Of a DNA stretch of 32,034 nt, positions 19,766-29,460 are shown in pieces (positions within the stretch are counted from its first letter, which is position 1; each line of letters begins with the position of its first letter). The stretch is taken from positions 1-32,034 of the forward strand of contig JAGHSY010000109.1 of NCBI GenBank assembly GCA_018065615.1, written 5' to 3'. The DNA is from Candidatus Colenecus caballi. GTDB lineage: Bacteria > Bacteroidota > Bacteroidia > Bacteroidales > Bacteroidaceae. Made by a program: the position numbers and the translations under genes. The notes under the pieces are model-generated. The model was given only the letters and a program-made list of their open reading frames with translations, was not told the origin of the DNA and did not search any database.

Positions 19766-20625
19766 TGCTGAAGGTACTTGCGCTGCTGGTAAGCCTGACA
19801 GTCTCGGCGCCATGGGCTGGAGAGGACAGTCGGGCAAAGGATGTGCTTCTGACTCCGTATCTGTGTGAAGACAGTCAGAATGCGCCTACGGTTATTGTAT
19901 GTCCGGGTGGCAGCTACCACTGGCTGGACGTGAAAGGTGAGGGCATTGAGGTGTCCGAATGGCTGCAGCGGAATGGAGTCAACGCATTTCTGCTCCAGTA
20001 CAGGACCGCAGGTTTTGCATCGTATTTCTGGCATTACCGTTATGTGGCCCGCGGACACCGTCATCCGGACATGATATGTGACATTCAGCGCACCATACGT
20101 CTGATCAGGGAAAATGCCAGTGAATACGGAATAGATGCGGACAGGCTTGGTGTGCTTGGCTTTTCGGCCGGTGGACATCTGGCGTTGTCATCGGCCTGTT
20201 TCTCTGATACGGACTATACAGATCTGAAGGCAGGCCCGTCACAGGTGTCACTGAGGCCCGATTTTGTGGGCGCCATCTACCCGGTCGTTACCATGACCGA
20301 AGATTTTGCACACAAACGTTCCCGCCGCGGACTGCTGGGTGAATGGGGTAAATACAGTGACAGAAAGCGGAAGGCGCTTTCTATTGAGCGGAATATTCCG
20401 CAGGACTGTCCGCCTGTATTTCTTGTAAATTGTCTTGATGATCCTGTTGTGGACTGGCAGAATTCTGTAATTTTGGACGAGGCGCTGACTGTAGCCGGCA
20501 TTTCACACGAATATCACCAGTATGAAACGGGCCGTCACGGATTTGGCGTGAGTGAGATTTACGGTTCTAAGGAATGCCGGAAATGGAAGTATGAATTTCT
20601 GAGATGGCTGGGAGAATTGAAATGA
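19765..20625 (+). CDS. Secreted alpha/beta-hydrolase (esterase), pathway-embedded
   Basis: 286 residues from ATG 19765, which shares one base with the preceding stop; a GTG at 19762 adds only one residue. A short hydrophobic leader (MLKVLALLVSLTVSAPWA) points to export. Oxyanion-type CPGGSYHW (46-53), the nucleophile elbow GFSAGG, the acidic NCLDDPVV and the His in GRHGFG give a full Ser-Asp-His triad. It belongs to the same carbohydrate-esterase-like family as the protein at 671-1627 but lacks the glycine-rich tail. Inside the operon it may hydrolyse an ester on the exported lipid. The last four bases overlap the ligase gene. Confidence 0.83.
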   Translation: MLKVLALLVSLTVSAPWAGEDSRAKDVLLTPYLCEDSQNAPTVIVCPGGSYHWLDVKGEGIEVSEWLQRNGVNAFLLQYRTAGFASYFWHYRYVARGHRHPDMICDIQRTIRLIRENASEYGIDADRLGVLGFSAGGHLALSSACFSDTDYTDLKAGPSQVSLRPDFVGAIYPVVTMTEDFAHKRSRRGLLGEWGKYSDRKRKALSIERNIPQDCPPVFLVNCLDDPVVDWQNSVILDEALTVAGISHEYHQYETGRHGFGVSEIYGSKECRKWKYEFLRWLGELK

Positions 20626-21923
20626 AAATGACTGAAGATATAGAATTTGAAAGTCCTGAAAAGATAAAGGAGTTCCAGGAAGAACTGCTGCAGAAGCACC
20701 TTGTTTATCTGCAGAAGAAGTCACCTTATTACAGGAGGCTGTTTTCCAGTTACGGGATAAACATTGAAAAGATAAGGCATCTGGAGGACCTGACAAGGAT
20801 TCCGTTCACGGAGAAGAAGGACCTGCAGCTGTACAATGACGATTTCTGCTGTGTTCCAAAGAAGAAAATCGTTGACTACATAACCACATCGGGCACTCTT
20901 GGTGACCCTGTGCTGTTCGGATGCACGGAAAAGGACCTGCGCCGGCTGGCATACAACGAAAAGAAGTCTTTCATGTGTGCGGGTCTTGCTCAGGACAGCG
21001 TGGTGCAGCTCATGACTACTTTGGACAAGCGGTTCATGGCAGGCATGGCATATTTCCTGGGACTCAGGGAGATGGGTGCGGGTGTGATACGAGTTGGCAA
21101 CGGCATCCCTGAACTTCAGTGGGACACCATACGCCGTTTCAAGCCCGATGCAATCATGTGCGTGCCATCATTCATCCTGAAACTGATAGATTACGCCGAA
21201 GCGCATGGTATTGACTACCGCAGCAGCAGTATTCGCAGAATTATCGGAATTGGAGAAGGACTGCGTGAGCAGAATTTCGACCTTAATCTGCTTGGTCGCC
21301 AGATTCATGAGCGCTGGCCCGAGGTCCAGCTGTTTGCCACATATTCGTCAACTGAAATGGGAGCCACTTTCAGCGAATGCGAATACGGGATGGGCGGTCA
21401 CGTGCATCCGGAACTGATTATTGTCGAGATAATTGGTGATGACGGAATGCCTGTTGCTGACGGTCAGCCGGGTGAAGTCGTGGTGACAACACTTGGTGTC
21501 GAGGGCATGCCGCTGCTAAGGTTCCGCACGGGTGACATAGCCTGCAAGCATGTGGAACAGTGCCGCTGCGGACGCTGGTCCTACCGCCTGTCACCGCTGC
21601 TTGGACGCAAGAACAATATGATCAAACTCAAGGGAACGACACTGTATCCGCCTGCAATATATGATGTGCTGGACAATACTGACTATGTTGAGAATTATGT
21701 GGTCATTGTCCGCAACAGTGCTGCCGGCACTGATGACGTTCTGGTTCAGGTGGGCCTGAAGAAGGAACAGGACTTTGACGTTGTCAAGTTTCTCAAGGAC
21801 AGTTTCCGTTCCCGCATCCGCGTTGCACCGGAAATTGAAATCTGTCCGGTAAAGGAAATTGCAGCGGTCAATTTTCCGCCAACAGGACGCAAACCTGTCA
21901 AATTCATAGACCAGCGCAAGTAA
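20622..21923 (+). CDS. Adenylating ligase of the phenylacetate-CoA ligase (PaaK) type
   Basis: 433 residues from ATG 20622, which overlaps the esterase stop as ATGA and has GGGAG upstream (20610-20614); ATG 20604 would add six residues. Motifs: TTSGTLGDPVLFG (P-loop type AMP motif), YSSTEMGATF (core A5), FRTGDIA (A7) and GRKNNMIKLKGTTLYPPAIYD (A8 region). The region with CRCGRW keeps the Cys pair seen in PaaK. It most likely activates an aromatic acid such as 4-hydroxybenzoate or coumarate and loads it on an ACP as the polyene starter; the substrate is inferred from pathway context. Confidence 0.88.
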   Translation: MKMTEDIEFESPEKIKEFQEELLQKHLVYLQKKSPYYRRLFSSYGINIEKIRHLEDLTRIPFTEKKDLQLYNDDFCCVPKKKIVDYITTSGTLGDPVLFGCTEKDLRRLAYNEKKSFMCAGLAQDSVVQLMTTLDKRFMAGMAYFLGLREMGAGVIRVGNGIPELQWDTIRRFKPDAIMCVPSFILKLIDYAEAHGIDYRSSSIRRIIGIGEGLREQNFDLNLLGRQIHERWPEVQLFATYSSTEMGATFSECEYGMGGHVHPELIIVEIIGDDGMPVADGQPGEVVVTTLGVEGMPLLRFRTGDIACKHVEQCRCGRWSYRLSPLLGRKNNMIKLKGTTLYPPAIYDVLDNTDYVENYVVIVRNSAAGTDDVLVQVGLKKEQDFDVVKFLKDSFRSRIRVAPEIEICPVKEIAAVNFPPTGRKPVKFIDQRK

Positions 21924-23278: not shown

Positions 23279-25159
23279 ATGGAACCGTTGAATCATGAGT
23301 GTGGTATGGTAATGATAAGGCTTCTCAAGCCCATGTCATATTACCGCAAGAAGTATGGTGATTTCCAGTATGGTCTGGGTCGTCTCTATCTGATGATGGA
23401 GAAGCAGAAGAACCGCGGACAGGAAGGTGCCGGCATAGCCTGCGTCAAGCTTAAGGCCAATCCCGGTGAGGATTACATGTTCAGAGACCGTGCTCTGGGC
23501 TCCGGTGCCATATCGGAAATGTTCGACAAGATCCAGGCCGAGATAGGCCAGTGCACAAAGGAACAGCTTGCAGATAACAACTGGCTGTGCAAGAACCTGC
23601 CGTTCATAGGTGACCTGTATCTGGGACATCTGCGTTACTCGTCAGGCGGCACCAAGAGCATTCAGGAAGTGCATCCGCTTCTGCGCCGCAACAACTGGAG
23701 GGCCAAGAACCTGGCCATCTGCGGCAACTTTACAATAACCAACAATGATGAGGTGTTCAAGGAAATCGTCTCCAAGGGACAGCATCCGCGTGACAATGCA
23801 TCGACCTATTTCATGCTGGAACAGATGGGACACCGTCTGGACCGTGAAGTGGAGCGCGTCTTCCACATTGCCGAGGACAAGGGCCTGCAGGGACTGGACA
23901 TCACCCAGTACATTGAGGACCACATGGACATTGCCAACGTCATGCGCACATCGGCCCCAATCTGGGACGGCGGTTATGTTGTGGGCGGAATTACCGGCAG
24001 CGGAGAATCATACGTGATACGTGACCCGTGGGGCATACGCACCGCATTCTGGTATGCCGATGATGAAGTGATTGTGACTGCATCGGAACGTGCCGCCATC
24101 CAGACAGCAATGAACGTTACATCGGACAAGGTCAACGAACTGCAGCCCGGTCAGGCACTTTGCATAAACAAGAAGGGAAAATACAAGCTTGAACAGATAA
24201 TAGAACAGAAGGCCAACCTGTCATGTTCATTCGAACGCGTGTATTTCAGCCGCGGCAATGACATAGACATCTACCGTGAACGCAAGGAACTGGGACGCCA
24301 GCTGGTGCAGCCGGTTCTTGATGCCGTTGAGGGTGATCTGGACCATTCCGTATTTTCATTCATCCCCAATACGGCCGAGGTCGCTTCATTCGGTCTGGTC
24401 CAGGGCTTTGAGGAATATCTGAACAGGGAAAAGATGCAGCAGATAAAGGCTCTGGGACCAAATCCAAGTGATGCCGATCTGGAAAGGATACTGTCCCGCC
24501 GTGTCCGCAACGAGAAGGTGGCGTGGAAGGACATCAAACTGCGTACGTTCATCACGGCCGGTGACAGCCGTAACGCTCTTGCCGCCCATGTGTATGACAT
24601 TACATACGGAACCATAGAAAAGGGTGTTGACAATCTGGTTGTCATTGACGACAGCATTGTACGCGGCACCACACTGCGCGAACAGATTCTGCGCATTCTG
24701 GACCGTCTGGAACCAAAGCGCATTGTCATTGTCAGCTCATCGCCCCAGGTGCGCTACCCGGACTATTACGGAATTGACATGTCAAGCATGGACCACTTTA
24801 TTGCCTTCAAGGCTGCCATGGCTCTTCTTGAAGAACGCGGAATGTGGAATGTGGTTACTGACGTTTACTGCAAGTGCCGTGAACAGCTGACCAAGCCTGC
24901 CGCAGAACGCGTAAACTGCGTCAAGGAGATTTACGCTCCTTTCACGGTCGATGAGATTTCAGACAAGATACGTGAACTCCTGACTCCGGCTGACTGCAAG
25001 GCCCAGGTCAAGATTGTCTATCAGACACTTGACGGACTGCACAAGGCTTGTCCCAACCATCTTGGAGACTGGTATTTCAGCGGCGATTTCCCGACTCCCG
25101 GCGGAACACTGCTTGTGAACAAGGCATTCATTGACTATTACGAAAAATACAACAAATAA
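23279..25159 (+). CDS. PurF-like protein: class II glutamine amidotransferase plus phosphoribosyltransferase domain
   Basis: 626 residues, longer than standard PurF (about 470-505). Cys8 in NHECGMV would be the N-terminal nucleophile after removal of a seven-residue propeptide. EKQKNRGQEGAGIA matches the HRGQDxAG segment, and GHLRYSSGG and GNFTITN are further glutaminase motifs. The PRPP loop is VVIDDSIVRGTT near 453-464. The C-terminal 100 residues (from about 525) have no PurF counterpart that I recognise. Known PurF makes phosphoribosylamine from PRPP and glutamine. Its place directly before carA and carB (one-base overlap) fits a paralog tied to carbamoyl-phosphate synthesis. Both domains look intact, so its own catalytic role is probable. 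Confidence 0.85.
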   Translation: MEPLNHECGMVMIRLLKPMSYYRKKYGDFQYGLGRLYLMMEKQKNRGQEGAGIACVKLKANPGEDYMFRDRALGSGAISEMFDKIQAEIGQCTKEQLADNNWLCKNLPFIGDLYLGHLRYSSGGTKSIQEVHPLLRRNNWRAKNLAICGNFTITNNDEVFKEIVSKGQHPRDNASTYFMLEQMGHRLDREVERVFHIAEDKGLQGLDITQYIEDHMDIANVMRTSAPIWDGGYVVGGITGSGESYVIRDPWGIRTAFWYADDEVIVTASERAAIQTAMNVTSDKVNELQPGQALCINKKGKYKLEQIIEQKANLSCSFERVYFSRGNDIDIYRERKELGRQLVQPVLDAVEGDLDHSVFSFIPNTAEVASFGLVQGFEEYLNREKMQQIKALGPNPSDADLERILSRRVRNEKVAWKDIKLRTFITAGDSRNALAAHVYDITYGTIEKGVDNLVVIDDSIVRGTTLREQILRILDRLEPKRIVIVSSSPQVRYPDYYGIDMSSMDHFIAFKAAMALLEERGMWNVVTDVYCKCREQLTKPAAERVNCVKEIYAPFTVDEISDKIRELLTPADCKAQVKIVYQTLDGLHKACPNHLGDWYFSGDFPTPGGTLLVNKAFIDYYEKYNK

Positions 25160-26220
25160 TGACGGTATCACTGATTTTGGCCGACGGCACCTGCTTCAAG
25201 GGTGAATCATTCGGCTTCCAGCAGCCTGTCAGCGGCGAACTTGTGTTCAACACCGCAATGACCGGCTATCCCGAACTGCTTACTGATCCCGCATCACGCG
25301 GACAGTTGCTGGTAATGACCTATCCCGTTATCGGAAACTACGGCATTCAGCCAATTGAGTCCGATGAATTCGGACTTCCGACAAACGCCGAGAGCTTTCA
25401 TGCTCAGGCAAGAGCACTGATTGTCAGCGACTACAGTGATTTCTACAGCCATTGGAACGCTAAGGAGTCCCTTGAGGACTGGATGAAGCGTGAAAAGGTT
25501 GCCGGCATTTGTGGCGTTGACACCCGCGAACTTACAAAGCACATTCGCCAGCACGGCAGCATGACTGCAAAGATCATGTTAGAGGGCAAGAACAAGCCTG
25601 AAGAGTATTCATATACCAACATGCTTCCGGAAGTCTCATGCAAGGAGCCTGTCACGTACAATGAGGGAGCATCAAAGAAGGTGGTTCTTGTTGACTGCGG
25701 TGTCAAGGCCGGCATGATACGCTGCCTTCTGAATGAAGACCTTGAAGTGGTACGCGTCCCCTGGAACTATGACTATTCCAAGATGAAGTTTGACGGACTT
25801 GTCATATCGGACGGTCCTGGCAATCCCAGCTACTGCAGTGAGGTTGTGACAAAACTCCAGAAATTCATGGCAAAGTCCGATACTCCGGTCCTTGGCGTAG
25901 GCATGGGCTGCCTGCTGCTGGGTCTTGCAGGCGGCATGGACACATACAGGCTCAAGTTCGGTCACCACACCCATAACCAGCCGGTCAGGCTGGAGGGCAC
26001 AGACCGCTGCTTCATTACCACACAGAACCACAACTATGCAATACGTGAGGAATCTGTGGTCGGTCAGTGGAAGGTATATCTCAAGAACCTGAATGACGGA
26101 TCGGTTGAGGGAATCTACAACACGCGCAAGCCGTTTGTGGGCGTCATGTTCCATTCCGAGTCCGACAGCATTCCTACAGATACCGAGTTCATTTATTCAG
26201 ATTTCATTTCAAAACTCTAA
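25159..26220 (+). CDS. carA: Carbamoyl-phosphate synthase small subunit, glutaminase Cys missing
   Basis: 353 residues, close to normal. The N-terminal CPSase small-chain domain is intact (SFGFQQPVSGELVFNTAMTG and GICGVDTRELTKHIRQHG). In the C-terminal class I glutaminase the nucleophile loop, normally GICxGxQ, reads GVGMGCLLL: Gly248 (codon GGC at 25900-25902) replaces the Cys, and Cys251/Leu252 replace the residues that bind glutamine. His332 and Glu334 (FHSES) are kept. Glutamine hydrolysis by the usual mechanism looks impossible, so the complex may use free ammonia, or ammonia from the PurF-like neighbour. The gene starts within the stop of the purF-like gene (TAATG) and ends 12 bases before carB. 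Confidence 0.9.
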   Translation: MTVSLILADGTCFKGESFGFQQPVSGELVFNTAMTGYPELLTDPASRGQLLVMTYPVIGNYGIQPIESDEFGLPTNAESFHAQARALIVSDYSDFYSHWNAKESLEDWMKREKVAGICGVDTRELTKHIRQHGSMTAKIMLEGKNKPEEYSYTNMLPEVSCKEPVTYNEGASKKVVLVDCGVKAGMIRCLLNEDLEVVRVPWNYDYSKMKFDGLVISDGPGNPSYCSEVVTKLQKFMAKSDTPVLGVGMGCLLLGLAGGMDTYRLKFGHHTHNQPVRLEGTDRCFITTQNHNYAIREESVVGQWKVYLKNLNDGSVEGIYNTRKPFVGVMFHSESDSIPTDTEFIYSDFISKL

Positions 26221-26232
26221 CACCGCGGAATT

Positions 26233-29200
26233 ATGGCAATGAAGAAATACAAGAAAGTACTGCTGCTTGGTTCAGGCGCACTTAAGATTGGTGAAGCCGG
26301 TGAGTTTGACTATTCAGGATCACAGGCGCTGAAAGCCCTTAAGGAAGAGAATATTGAAACCATTCTGATCAATCCGAACATTGCAACCGTCCAGACCAGT
26401 GAGGGCGTTGCGGACAAGGTATATTTCTATCCGGTAACCCCGTTCTTTGTAGAGAAGGTCATTGCAAAGGAACGTCCCGATGCAATCCTGCTGGCTTTTG
26501 GCGGTCAGACCGCACTGAACTGCGGTGTGGCTCTGTATCAGAACGGCGTTCTTGACAAGTATAAGGTCAAGGTTCTGGGTACACAGGTCAAGGCCATCAT
26601 GGACACTGAAGACCGTGAGCTCTTCATTGAACGCCTTGATGAGATTGGCGTACAGACAATAAAGAGCCATGCTGTCGAGACCATGGAGGATGCCCGCGCA
26701 GCCGCTCTGGAACTTGGTTATCCCGTCATCATCCGTTCCGCATACGCACTTGGCGGACTTGGATCAGGTTTCTGTGACAATGAGGAGGAACTGAACAGGC
26801 TGGCTGAAAAGTCATTCTCGTTCTCACCCCAGATTCTTGTCGAGAAGAGCCTGAAGGGCTGGAAGGAAATAGAGTTCGAATGTGTAAACGACAAGAGCGG
26901 CAACTCAATCATTGTCTGCTCAATGGAGAACTTCGACCCGCTGGGCATACATACCGGTGAAAGTATAGTCGTAGCTCCCACACAGACCCTTACACAGCAC
27001 GAGGTCCAGAAACTTGAAGAGATAACCATCCGCATTGCCCGTCACGTTGGCATTGTAGGTGAGTGCAACATCCAGTTCGCATTTGACCCCCAGTCCGAGG
27101 AATACCGCGTGATTGAGGTCAACGCCCGCCTTAGCCGTTCATCGGCCCTGGCATCGAAGGCTACCGGCTATCCTCTGGCATTCGTTGCCTGCAAACTGGG
27201 TCTGGGCTACAACCTGTATGAACTGACAAACTCCATAACAAAGTCCACCACCAACTTCTTTGAACCGTCTGTTGACTATGTGGTAGCCAAGATTCCGCGC
27301 TGGGACCTTTCCAAGTTCCATGGCGTTGACCGCGAGATAGGTTCAAGCATGAAGTCCGTAGGTGAGGTCATGTCAATTGGCCGCAGCTTTGAAGAGGTTA
27401 TCCAGAAGGGTATCCGCATGATAGGCCAGGGCATGCACGGATTCGTCGAGAATAAGAGCGTGAAGTTCGCTGACCTTGACAAGGCACTGAAGGAGCCTAC
27501 CGACAAGCGTCTGTTTGCCATCAGCCAGGCTTTCCAGGAAGGTTACAGCATAGACCGCGTCTGGGAACTGACCAAGATTGACAAGTGGTTCCTGAACCGT
27601 CTTATGGGTATTTATAAGGTGTCACAGGAACTGCATAAGGTCAAGGGCATTGACAAGCTGCCGGAGGACCTGCTGCGCAAGGCTAAGAAGATGGGCTTCT
27701 CGGACTTCCAGATTTCACGTGCGCTTGGTATGGAGAAGGTTCAGGGCTCGCAGGCCGGCCAGCTGGCAGTCAGGGCTCTGCGCAAGAAGCTGGGCATCAT
27801 GCCTTTCGTCAAGCAGATTGATACTCTTGGCGGCGAATATCAGGCAAAGGCCAACTACCTGTACCTGACATACAACGGCTGTGCTCATGACATTGAATTC
27901 TTTGATGACAAAAAGTCCATCATCGTAATAGGTTCAGGCGCATATAGAATAGGTTCTTCAGTCGAATTTGACTGGTGCGGCGTCCAGGCCCTGAACACCA
28001 TCCGCAAGGAGGGCTACCGCAACATCATGATCAACTGCAACCCTGAGACGGTAAGTACAGACTACGACGTGACCGACCGCCTGTTCTTTGACGAACTGAC
28101 ATTCGAACGTGTCATGGATGTCATCGAACTTGAGAATCCTTACGGTGTGATTGTATCGACCGGCGGACAGATTCCCAACAACCTGGCCATGAAGCTCGAT
28201 GCAATGAACGTTCCTATCTTAGGTACCAGCGCAAAGGACATTGACAATGCTGAAGACCGTGAAAAGTTCTCAGCCATGCTTGACCGCATAGGAGTTGACC
28301 AGCCCGAATGGAGCGAACTGACTTCAATGAAGGAGATTGGCAAGTTCATTGACCGCGTGGGATTCCCTGTTCTGGTGCGTCCTTCATACGTGCTGTCAGG
28401 CGCTGCCATGAACGTATGCAGCAATCAGGATGAACTGGAGCGTTTCCTGCAGCTTGCTGCCGATGTCTCCAAGGAACATCCGGTAGTAGTCAGCCGTTTC
28501 ATTGAAAACGCAAAGGAGGTGGAGATGGATGCCGTTGCCAAAGACGGTGAAATAATAGCATACGCAATCAGTGAGCACATTGAATTTGCCGGCGTTCACT
28601 CAGGTGATGCCACTATCCAGTTCCCGCCCCAGAAGCTGTATGTTGAGACAGTGAAGCGCATCAAGCGCATAAGCCGTCAGATTGCCAAGGAACTGCACAT
28701 AAGCGGTCCTTTCAACATCCAGTACCTGGCACGTGAGAACGACATCAAGGTGATTGAGTGCAACCTGCGCGCATCACGTTCGTTCCCGTTCGTGAGCAAG
28801 GTGCTCAAGATCAACCTTATTGAGATTGCAACCAAGATCATGCTGGGCATTCCCGTAAGCGCACCTGAAAAGAGCCTGTTTGACATTGACTACGTGGGTA
28901 TCAAGGCATCACAGTTCTCATTCAACCGTCTGCAGAAGGCCGATCCCGTATTGGGCGTAGATATGGCTTCTACCGGCGAGGTAGGCTGCCTGGGTGATGA
29001 CCAGCGCTATGCAATTCTTGAGTCCATGCTGTCTGTCGGACATCGCATTCCCAAGAAGAACATTCTGCTGTCAACCGGTACCGCAAAGCAGAAGGCCGCC
29101 ATGCTTGATGCTGCCAAGATGCTTCAGGAACATGGCTACAATATCTATGCTACCGGCGGAACATCAAAATATCTGGCAGAGAACGGCATTCAGAACACAC

Positions 29201-29460
29201 GCGTGTTCTGGCCCAGTGAGGAAGGCCAGAAGCCGCAGGCGCTTGACATGCTGCATGGCAAGCAGATTGACATGGTGGTCAACATCCCCAAGGATCTGAC
29301 ACAGCACGAACTGACCAACGGATACAAGATACGCCGTGCCGCAATAGATTTGAACATTCCGCTCATTACCAACGCACGTCTTGCAAGTTCGTTCATCAAC
29401 GCGTTCTGCACCGTTGACGTTGATGACATTCCAATCAAGAGCTGGGACGGATTCAAATAA
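26233..29460 (+). CDS. carB: Carbamoyl-phosphate synthase large subunit
   Basis: 1075 residues, full length. The N-terminal ATP-grasp half (about 1-400) starts LLGSGALKIGEAGEFDYSGS and contains IRSAYALGGLGSGF. The oligomerisation region is about 401-550. The second ATP-grasp half (about 551-940) repeats the pattern (VIGSGAYRIGSSVEFDWCG, LVRPSYVLSGAAM). The C-terminal MGS-like allosteric domain (STGTAKQKAAML, YATGGTSKYLAENG) is about 941-1075. It makes carbamoyl phosphate from bicarbonate, ammonia and two ATP for pyrimidine and arginine synthesis. ATG 26233 is used; ATG 26239 (MKKYKKV) is also possible. Unlike carA, no catalytic loss stands out. Confidence 0.95.
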   Translation: MAMKKYKKVLLLGSGALKIGEAGEFDYSGSQALKALKEENIETILINPNIATVQTSEGVADKVYFYPVTPFFVEKVIAKERPDAILLAFGGQTALNCGVALYQNGVLDKYKVKVLGTQVKAIMDTEDRELFIERLDEIGVQTIKSHAVETMEDARAAALELGYPVIIRSAYALGGLGSGFCDNEEELNRLAEKSFSFSPQILVEKSLKGWKEIEFECVNDKSGNSIIVCSMENFDPLGIHTGESIVVAPTQTLTQHEVQKLEEITIRIARHVGIVGECNIQFAFDPQSEEYRVIEVNARLSRSSALASKATGYPLAFVACKLGLGYNLYELTNSITKSTTNFFEPSVDYVVAKIPRWDLSKFHGVDREIGSSMKSVGEVMSIGRSFEEVIQKGIRMIGQGMHGFVENKSVKFADLDKALKEPTDKRLFAISQAFQEGYSIDRVWELTKIDKWFLNRLMGIYKVSQELHKVKGIDKLPEDLLRKAKKMGFSDFQISRALGMEKVQGSQAGQLAVRALRKKLGIMPFVKQIDTLGGEYQAKANYLYLTYNGCAHDIEFFDDKKSIIVIGSGAYRIGSSVEFDWCGVQALNTIRKEGYRNIMINCNPETVSTDYDVTDRLFFDELTFERVMDVIELENPYGVIVSTGGQIPNNLAMKLDAMNVPILGTSAKDIDNAEDREKFSAMLDRIGVDQPEWSELTSMKEIGKFIDRVGFPVLVRPSYVLSGAAMNVCSNQDELERFLQLAADVSKEHPVVVSRFIENAKEVEMDAVAKDGEIIAYAISEHIEFAGVHSGDATIQFPPQKLYVETVKRIKRISRQIAKELHISGPFNIQYLARENDIKVIECNLRASRSFPFVSKVLKINLIEIATKIMLGIPVSAPEKSLFDIDYVGIKASQFSFNRLQKADPVLGVDMASTGEVGCLGDDQRYAILESMLSVGHRIPKKNILLSTGTAKQKAAMLDAAKMLQEHGYNIYATGGTSKYLAENGIQNTRVFWPSEEGQKPQALDMLHGKQIDMVVNIPKDLTQHELTNGYKIRRAAIDLNIPLITNARLASSFINAFCTVDVDDIPIKSWDGFK

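Follow-up and report, generated by a model that had tools for sequence, protein, structure and literature searches.

A carbamoyl-phosphate synthetase small subunit without its catalytic cysteine in Candidatus Colenecus caballi and its genus: a probable ammonia-using enzyme in a lineage that may have partly given up glutamine as nitrogen donor

Introduction

In a 32,034-nucleotide stretch of DNA from Candidatus Colenecus caballi (Bacteroidaceae; GenBank assembly GCA_018065615.1, contig JAGHSY010000109.1, positions 1 to 32,034 of the forward strand; hereafter the window), the gene for CarA, the small subunit of carbamoyl-phosphate synthetase (CPSase), encodes a Gly where the catalytic Cys of the glutaminase is expected, and directly upstream lies a gene for a protein related to the amidotransferase PurF. 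From which donor, then, would this CPSase take its nitrogen? The initial annotation, made from the letters of the window, had offered two answers: ammonia supplied by the PurF-like protein, or an ammonia-dependent CPSase as in CPS I, where the Cys is also lost. Comparison with related genomes best supports the second. We consider it probable that the bacterial CPSase encoded in the window uses ammonia, much as vertebrate CPS I does, and that its lineage would have partly given up glutamine as nitrogen donor.

Results

The genes in question lie on one strand in the order purF-like, carA, carB. As first described, purF-like and carA overlap by one base, with a TAATG junction at 25159.

23279..25159, + strand: PurF-like protein (divergent amidophosphoribosyltransferase), 626 aa, with Cys8, Ser175 at the Asp127-equivalent position and the phosphoribosyl pyrophosphate (PRPP) loop VIDDSIVRG
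25159..26220, + strand: CarA (CPSase small subunit), 353 aa, without the catalytic Cys (TIGR01368 and alignments)
25885..25926, + strand: former nucleophile elbow of CarA, residues 243-256, PVLGVGMGCLLLGL
25900-25902, + strand: codon GGC for Gly248 of CarA
26152..26160, + strand: His332-Ser333-Glu334 of CarA (HPE in intact relatives), counted from the open reading frame (ORF) start at 25159
26233..29460, + strand: CarB (CPSase large subunit), 1075 aa, complete (TIGR01369, 1509 bits)

By score the window CarA is a member of its family, with 377 bits against TIGR01368 (curated cut-off 307). However, alignment to E. coli CarA places Gly248 at the catalytic Cys (Cys269; VLGVGMGCLLL against VFGICLGHQLL), the nucleophile of a glutamine-hydrolysing CPSase small subunit, while His332 and Glu334 align with the His and Glu of the triad, so that the initial description of this site holds. 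The site was then read across a genus set of 37 genomes, 34 of which carry a CarA of this type (type A) and 33 a copy that is readable at the site, the 34th (G026) ending before it. Position 248 is Gly in 29 copies, Asp in two and Glu in two, and both His332 and Glu334 are retained in all 33. Given that none of the 33 copies has the Cys, Gly248 is not a read error; the agreement of 33 assemblies rules out the sequencing error at 25897-25914 that could have explained it, and the Cys loss in the window CarA is confirmed as real.

The nucleophile is not the only residue changed. Named by the residue of intact relatives, Q252L, G292N, N251C, Q330M and P333S are found in 33/33 type A copies. Leu252 and Asn292 stand where the Gln and Gly of the glutamine site are expected, positions that we take to correspond to Gln273 and Gly313 of E. 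coli CarA. In contrast, Cys, Gln252 and Gly292 are all present in 40/40 copies from the family and in 20/20 copies of a second genus CarA (type B), which has about 47% identity to type A and occurs in 20 of the 37 genomes. The family search gave a CarA match in 170 of 199 genomes, and the family was sampled from among the matches listed; within that sample, 41 of the 42 copies read outside the genus keep the Cys (40/40 in one set, plus L099). The sole exception, L097 from genome G074 of genus g22, has Gly at the site and Ala in place of His332. The named CarA relatives come from uncultured Bacteroidales in 28 of 29 loci, with sources that include metagenome-assembled genomes (MAGs) from horse faeces and from the forestomachs (rumen, reticulum or omasum) of sheep, yak and water buffalo; the one remaining locus has a distant CarA of Syntrophomonadaceae.

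These altered genes are under constraint. The mean NG86 dN/dS of CarA is 0.067 over 136 pairs (17 copies, all from genomes without the PurF-like gene), with 0.054 for the glutamine amidotransferase (GATase) half, and 0.08 in the genome group of the window, referred to below as group 1 (7 usable of 10 pairs); for CarB it is 0.013-0.033 (3 pairs). Hence the glutamine-site loss is fixed across the genus and under purifying selection. The best reading of these replacements is that the small subunit can no longer hydrolyse glutamine. A second, Cys-containing carA, which the initial annotation suggested looking for, was not found in the assembly of the window (90.8% complete) nor in any group-1 genome.

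Group 1 comprises the 12 genomes that have the PurF-like gene and lack the canonical set (G000, G004, G007, G012, G015-G017 and G019-G023). Type B CarA, canonical PurF (TIGR01134) and GlmS, its SIS part included, were found in none of the 12, and the Cys-less CarA is the only CarA found. PyrG (PF06418) was not found in 10 of them (G000, G004, G007, G012, G015, G016, G017, G019, G020 and G022), and the PyrG of the remaining two, G021 and G023, reads GIQLGMQ instead of GICLGMQ, a Cys to Gln replacement. The 12 also show none of the class-II matches of ~ 55-62 bits that presumably represent AsnB in 21 other genomes, an absence that is less sure than that of GlmS. If independence is assumed, the chance that 12 genomes all miss a gene that is present, through incompleteness, is about 3e-12.

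The 24 genomes without the PurF-like gene have the opposite content: canonical PurF, GlmS and PyrG in 23 each, type B CarA in 19, and type A CarA still in 21. Over the whole genus PyrG was found in 26 genomes, with Cys in 22 and Gln in two, while two copies end before the site; the remainder of the G018 PyrG, on another contig, carries the Cys, and G014 retains it (GLCLGMQ). Group 1 thus represents one half of an almost complete exchange, with departures in one or more points in G018, G013, G009, G010, G001 and G034. Among these, G001, G013 and G034 have the Cys-less CarA with neither the PurF-like gene nor type B, G013 also lacks GlmS, and G009 (62% complete) lacks PyrG and any CarA.

Two observations on these genomes are added here. 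The 10 group-1 genomes without a PF06418 CTP synthase have a CPSase and carbamoyltransferases, and would need cytidine uptake or another route to CTP. In addition, one in-frame TAG interrupts each of two otherwise long genes, PurL of G016 (L313) and canonical purF of G014 (L130), and may be real or due to an assembly error.

Other glutaminase elements are lost in parallel, as shown for GMP synthetase and CTP synthase. With 21 genomes examined, each of the 12 group-1 genomes has one GMP synthetase match, in frames of 328-371 aa. In G000 this frame covers guaA_Cterm from 1 to 310 of 310, aligns with the whole-protein model from position 196 onwards only, and matches no GATase family; the other 11 were judged by frame length and the missing GATase motif. 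Short and full forms occur together in G006, G010, G018, G027 and G088, whereas G042 and G096, from other genera, have only the full one; in G036 the full form is accompanied by a 133-aa frame that comprises just the C-terminal domain. The motif in the full forms is GICYGAQ. Genome G074, the source of the L097 CarA, has a 451-aa GMP synthetase frame with a GATase remnant (positions 1-76 of 190) and a PyrG with Cys replaced by Gly, whereas its sister in genus g22, G088, has a Cys-intact CarA; genus g22 therefore repeats the contrast. The carbamoyl phosphate formed has users, since PF02729 carbamoyltransferase N-domains are present in 21 genomes, two in 19 of them, three in G015 and one in G012.

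Could these synthetases, CPSase included, be fed by a separate glutaminase that has gone unrecognised, being of another fold or missed? There is room for one, as the genome-wide searches for glutaminases comprised PF00117 (11 genomes), TIGR01134 and GlmS, and such an enzyme might be of the nitrilase or amidase type. In G000 the class-I GATases that pass the cut-off are CarA, HisH and a frame of 616 aa. This frame comes nearest to gamma-glutamyl-GABA hydrolase and scores 61 bits against GMP synthase subunit A (cut-off 198), and a GATase-like frame of this kind (587-624 aa) occurs in 6/7 group-1 genomes scanned (G000, G007, G016, G019, G021, G022 and G023). However, G006, G010 and G018 also have a like frame alongside intact glutaminases, and G021 showed no such frame; furthermore, a single enzyme would have to supply several dissimilar synthetases simultaneously. 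In the same seven genomes no GuaA-type GATase over cut-off and no TrpG/PabA-type GATase was found. We regard this explanation as unlikely. As to the TrpG/PabA type, G006 differs in having a 204-aa frame with GICLGHQ (L160), flanked by frames of 473 and 338 aa.

We then turn to the neighbour of carA, called an intact PurF-type glutaminase in the initial annotation. The first part of that description stands: Cys8, the putative N-terminal nucleophile after seven residues, is present and kept in 12/12 genus copies read. The word intact does not. In the phmmer alignment Ser175 faces the Asp of the E. coli PurF motif TSDSEILL, presumably the glutamine-binding Asp127, and this position is Ser in 10 and Glu in two of the 12 full-length genus copies, compared with Asp in 10/10 outside the genus. 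The 12 copies come from 11 group-1 genomes and G010; in the 13th carrier, G004, the gene is split into two pieces. G020 and G022 have Lys for the Arg of GHLRY. Where PurF has the Asn of its HNGN motif, part of the oxyanion hole, all PurF-like copies read seem to have Cys, also outside the genus, so that this change is not informative. The protein scores 115 bits against TIGR01134, below the curated cut-off of 350, and a Pfam scan gave nothing at 0.001; an AlphaFold2 model with a mean pLDDT of 61.5 was not used for any reading.

The PRPP-binding loop VIDDSIVRG is intact, however, and no other PurF was found in the 12 group-1 genomes; a role in purine synthesis therefore explains the protein. 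A PRPP amidotransferase would indeed be needed there, since PurL is kept and implies a purine pathway. We infer that the PurF-like protein is probably the PRPP amidotransferase of its cells, and that it too would use mainly NH3.

It is very unlikely, by comparison, that it acts as the glutaminase of the CPSase, hydrolysing glutamine at Cys8 and passing ammonia to CarB through or alongside a dead CarA. The position of the gene suggests such a partnership, with its one-base overlap and with a PurF-like gene close to carA in 30 of the 40 loci read elsewhere in the family (among the matches listed), and so does the conserved Cys8. But the CarA of those 30 loci has its own Cys. Within the genus the PurF-like gene is present in 13/37 genomes and missing from 24, and 21 of the latter keep the Cys-less CarA, under selection in the 17 copies measured. 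Together with the lost Asp (12/12 copies) and a purine role that suffices, this leaves the proposed ammonia supply from the PurF-like protein unsupported, although as far as sequence can tell the two might form a transient complex. Nor do the long CarA frames argue for it: frames of ~ 950-1000 aa that were considered as PurF-CarA fusions were rejected as such, CarA being joined in them to the N-terminal half of CarB.

These fusions are an observation of their own. In L081 and L084-L094 (genera g9, g11, g13 and g17; 951-1001 aa) CarA is fused to only the N-terminal CarB half, and no close C-terminal half was found in these loci of 7-11 kb, so that they possibly represent a CPSase with one synthetase domain or a split CarB with the other half elsewhere. 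In L080, L082 and L083 CarA and the full CarB share one frame (1461-1567 aa), as in eukaryotic CPS.

The order of events was examined with trees. In the PurL tree, which gives the better support, G006, G018, G027 and G036 fall together in a single clade (96/94) that is nested within group 1; the CarA tree agrees on this nesting for G006, G018 and G036, and has L097, L099 and the outgroup on long branches. G018 is placed with these group-2 genomes in the PurL tree despite having no type B CarA and no canonical PurF over cut-off. Genome G008, the only one in which the island was read through, carries type A CarAB and, ~ 70-100 kb away on the same contig, a gene island of ~ 31 kb with GlmS, PyrG, an ammonium transporter, AsnB, GSIII, GltB, GltD, a putative DapF-like frame, DapL, type B CarAB and PurF. 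G025 likewise holds type A and type B CarA on one contig, which makes simple contamination unlikely. Prevotella ruminicola 23 has a similar cluster for ammonium assimilation, as described in the available part of PMC5552732.

Four carA loci without the PurF-like gene were listed gene by gene. L337 (G018) and L338 (G008) have the upstream genes of the window (esterase-like, CoA ligase, acyltransferase) and another ORF in place of purF-like, and L327 and L336 have different upstream genes. In the window itself, the region upstream of purF-like (1764-23049; 8 neighbours scanned) holds an apparent flexirubin/aryl-polyene-type cluster with ketosynthases and a transporter-acyltransferase, including an FlxY-like CoA ligase at 20604-21923 (685 bits).

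Discussion

The CPSase of the window likely works like CPS I. In the proposed mechanism, CarA would be retained for a structural or regulatory role beside CarB, and CarB would take free NH3 in a gut that is presumably rich in ammonia. The best near-full-length match of the window CarA in the PDB is human CPS1 [ammonia] (299 bits), compared with 195 bits in two pieces for E. coli CarA. Human CPS1 has Ser294 at the lost Cys, is unable to use glutamine and takes ammonia from solution, and is presented as unique among CPS types in doing without glutamine, according to the part of PMC4655335 available to us.

Several points weigh against this proposal. The likeness to CPS1 may be common to the Cys-intact CarAs of the family as well, and the triad His332 and Glu334 are kept in 33/33 copies in spite of the lost Cys. 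In the accessible portion of PMC6245113, E. coli CPSase is reported to use ammonia only at a very high, likely unphysiological concentration; an improved ammonia site would therefore be required in CarB. The glutaminase part of the PurF-like protein retains Cys8, and purifying selection acts on it (dN/dS 0.07-0.15 in usable pairs). Glutamine is still used elsewhere, since HisH (GICLGQQLM in 7/7 group-1 genomes read) and PurL (GICNGCQ or GVCNGCQ in 12/12) keep their Cys. G010 carries both sets, PurF-like as well as type B CarA, canonical PurF, GlmS and PyrG, possibly through mis-binning, whereas G018, 100% complete, has the Cys-less CarA without PurF-like, type B or canonical PurF over cut-off. 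Finally, nearly all genomes are MAGs. Two candidate conclusions were rejected: an apparent Cys loss in PurL, which was an artefact of a pattern allowing only GVC, and a complete abandonment of glutamine use, given the intact HisH and PurL where read. With regard to the ammonia requirement, the extract of PMC10526850 gives a Km of 103 mM for ammonium in E. coli GMP synthetase. The synthetases would either have improved ammonia sites, or work in cells bathed in ammonia-rich fluid, or both.

Very unlikely, too, is a shift of the nucleophile to the invariant Cys251, acting with His332 and Glu334 so that CarA would be a glutaminase of altered geometry. Cys251 is found in 33/33 genus copies and in L097 of g22, and the His and Glu are kept in all 33. 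However, the intact enzymes read have Asn, His, Gln, Met or Ala here (GICMGNQ, GICLGHQ, GICLGQQ, GICLGMQ, GICYGAQ), so that the position probably does not line the site; Gln252 and Gly292 have gone as well, and L097 has Cys251 but Ala for His332. A decaying, functionless paralogue or a MAG artefact, for which one could invoke the MAG origin of the sequences and the second, intact CarA in 19 of the 24 genomes without PurF-like, is hardly credible, as 33 assemblies agree, dN/dS is low in CarA and CarB, and the 12 group-1 genomes have the Cys-less CarA as the only one found.

Coming back to the ammonia-using CPSase, a history for the genus can be proposed, to which we give slightly less than an even chance. 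The ancestor of this herbivore-gut genus would have abandoned glutamine in the synthesis of nucleotides and amino sugars: the glutaminases belonging to CPSase, GMP synthetase, CTP synthase and PRPP amidotransferase would have been disabled, cut off or lost, with ammonia as direct nitrogen donor, and GlmS and canonical PurF, apparently also AsnB, would have gone. A derived clade would later have taken in the island with its ammonium transporter, GSIII, GOGAT, AsnB, CarAB and PurF, upon which the old PurF-like gene would have been lost and the ammonia CPSase retained as a second isoenzyme. Loss in the genus ancestor with later gain in group 2 is favoured, although an ancestor that had both sets, followed by repeated independent losses, may also account for the pattern.

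In the titles and abstract openings listed by searches of the open-access literature (subscription papers lying outside), no bacterial Cys-less CarA and no joint loss of this kind is described. If true, a Cys-less bacterial CarA kept by selection would mean that the CPS I transition took place a further, independent time, and with close Cys-intact relatives for comparison the path from glutamine use to ammonia use would be open to testing. A joint change of several amidotransferases would link enzyme evolution to the ammonia supply of the gut, and would caution against annotating these genes as glutamine-hydrolysing. Bacterial CPSases are described as glutamine enzymes by extension from E. coli in the consulted text of PMC6245113.

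Among known systems, the single-domain NAD synthetase is likewise a bacterial amidating enzyme working on free ammonia, and its forms have undergone lineage-specific loss and horizontal transfer; unlike the present case it concerns one enzyme, and the ammonia form is thought to be ancestral there, at least in the portion of PMC3376133 available, while it looks derived in the genus. The short GuaA resembles the ATPPase subunit of the archaeal two-subunit GMP synthetase in being the synthetase part alone, and such archaeal-type parts are noted in the PMC10526850 extract to use external ammonia in vitro; it differs in that no matching GATase subunit over cut-off was found in the seven group-1 genomes scanned, and it is probably derived by domain loss, with the remnant in G074. 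Compared with bacterial CarA of the glutamine type (TIGR01368), the genus type A has the same length, domain order and adjoining carB as well as a score over the cut-off, but its catalytic Cys, Gln252 and Gly292 are all replaced. With vertebrate CPS I it shares the retained GATase part, the replaced triad Cys and the kept His and Glu. It is not a member of CPS I, which has small and large parts in a single polypeptide and is activated by N-acetylglutamate, since its subunits are separate ORFs. It is also found in a bacterium, has Gly, Asp or Glu as replacement and arises inside a Cys-intact bacterial family. A lineage-wide move away from glutamine, if true, would make this CPSase a bacterial counterpart of CPS I.

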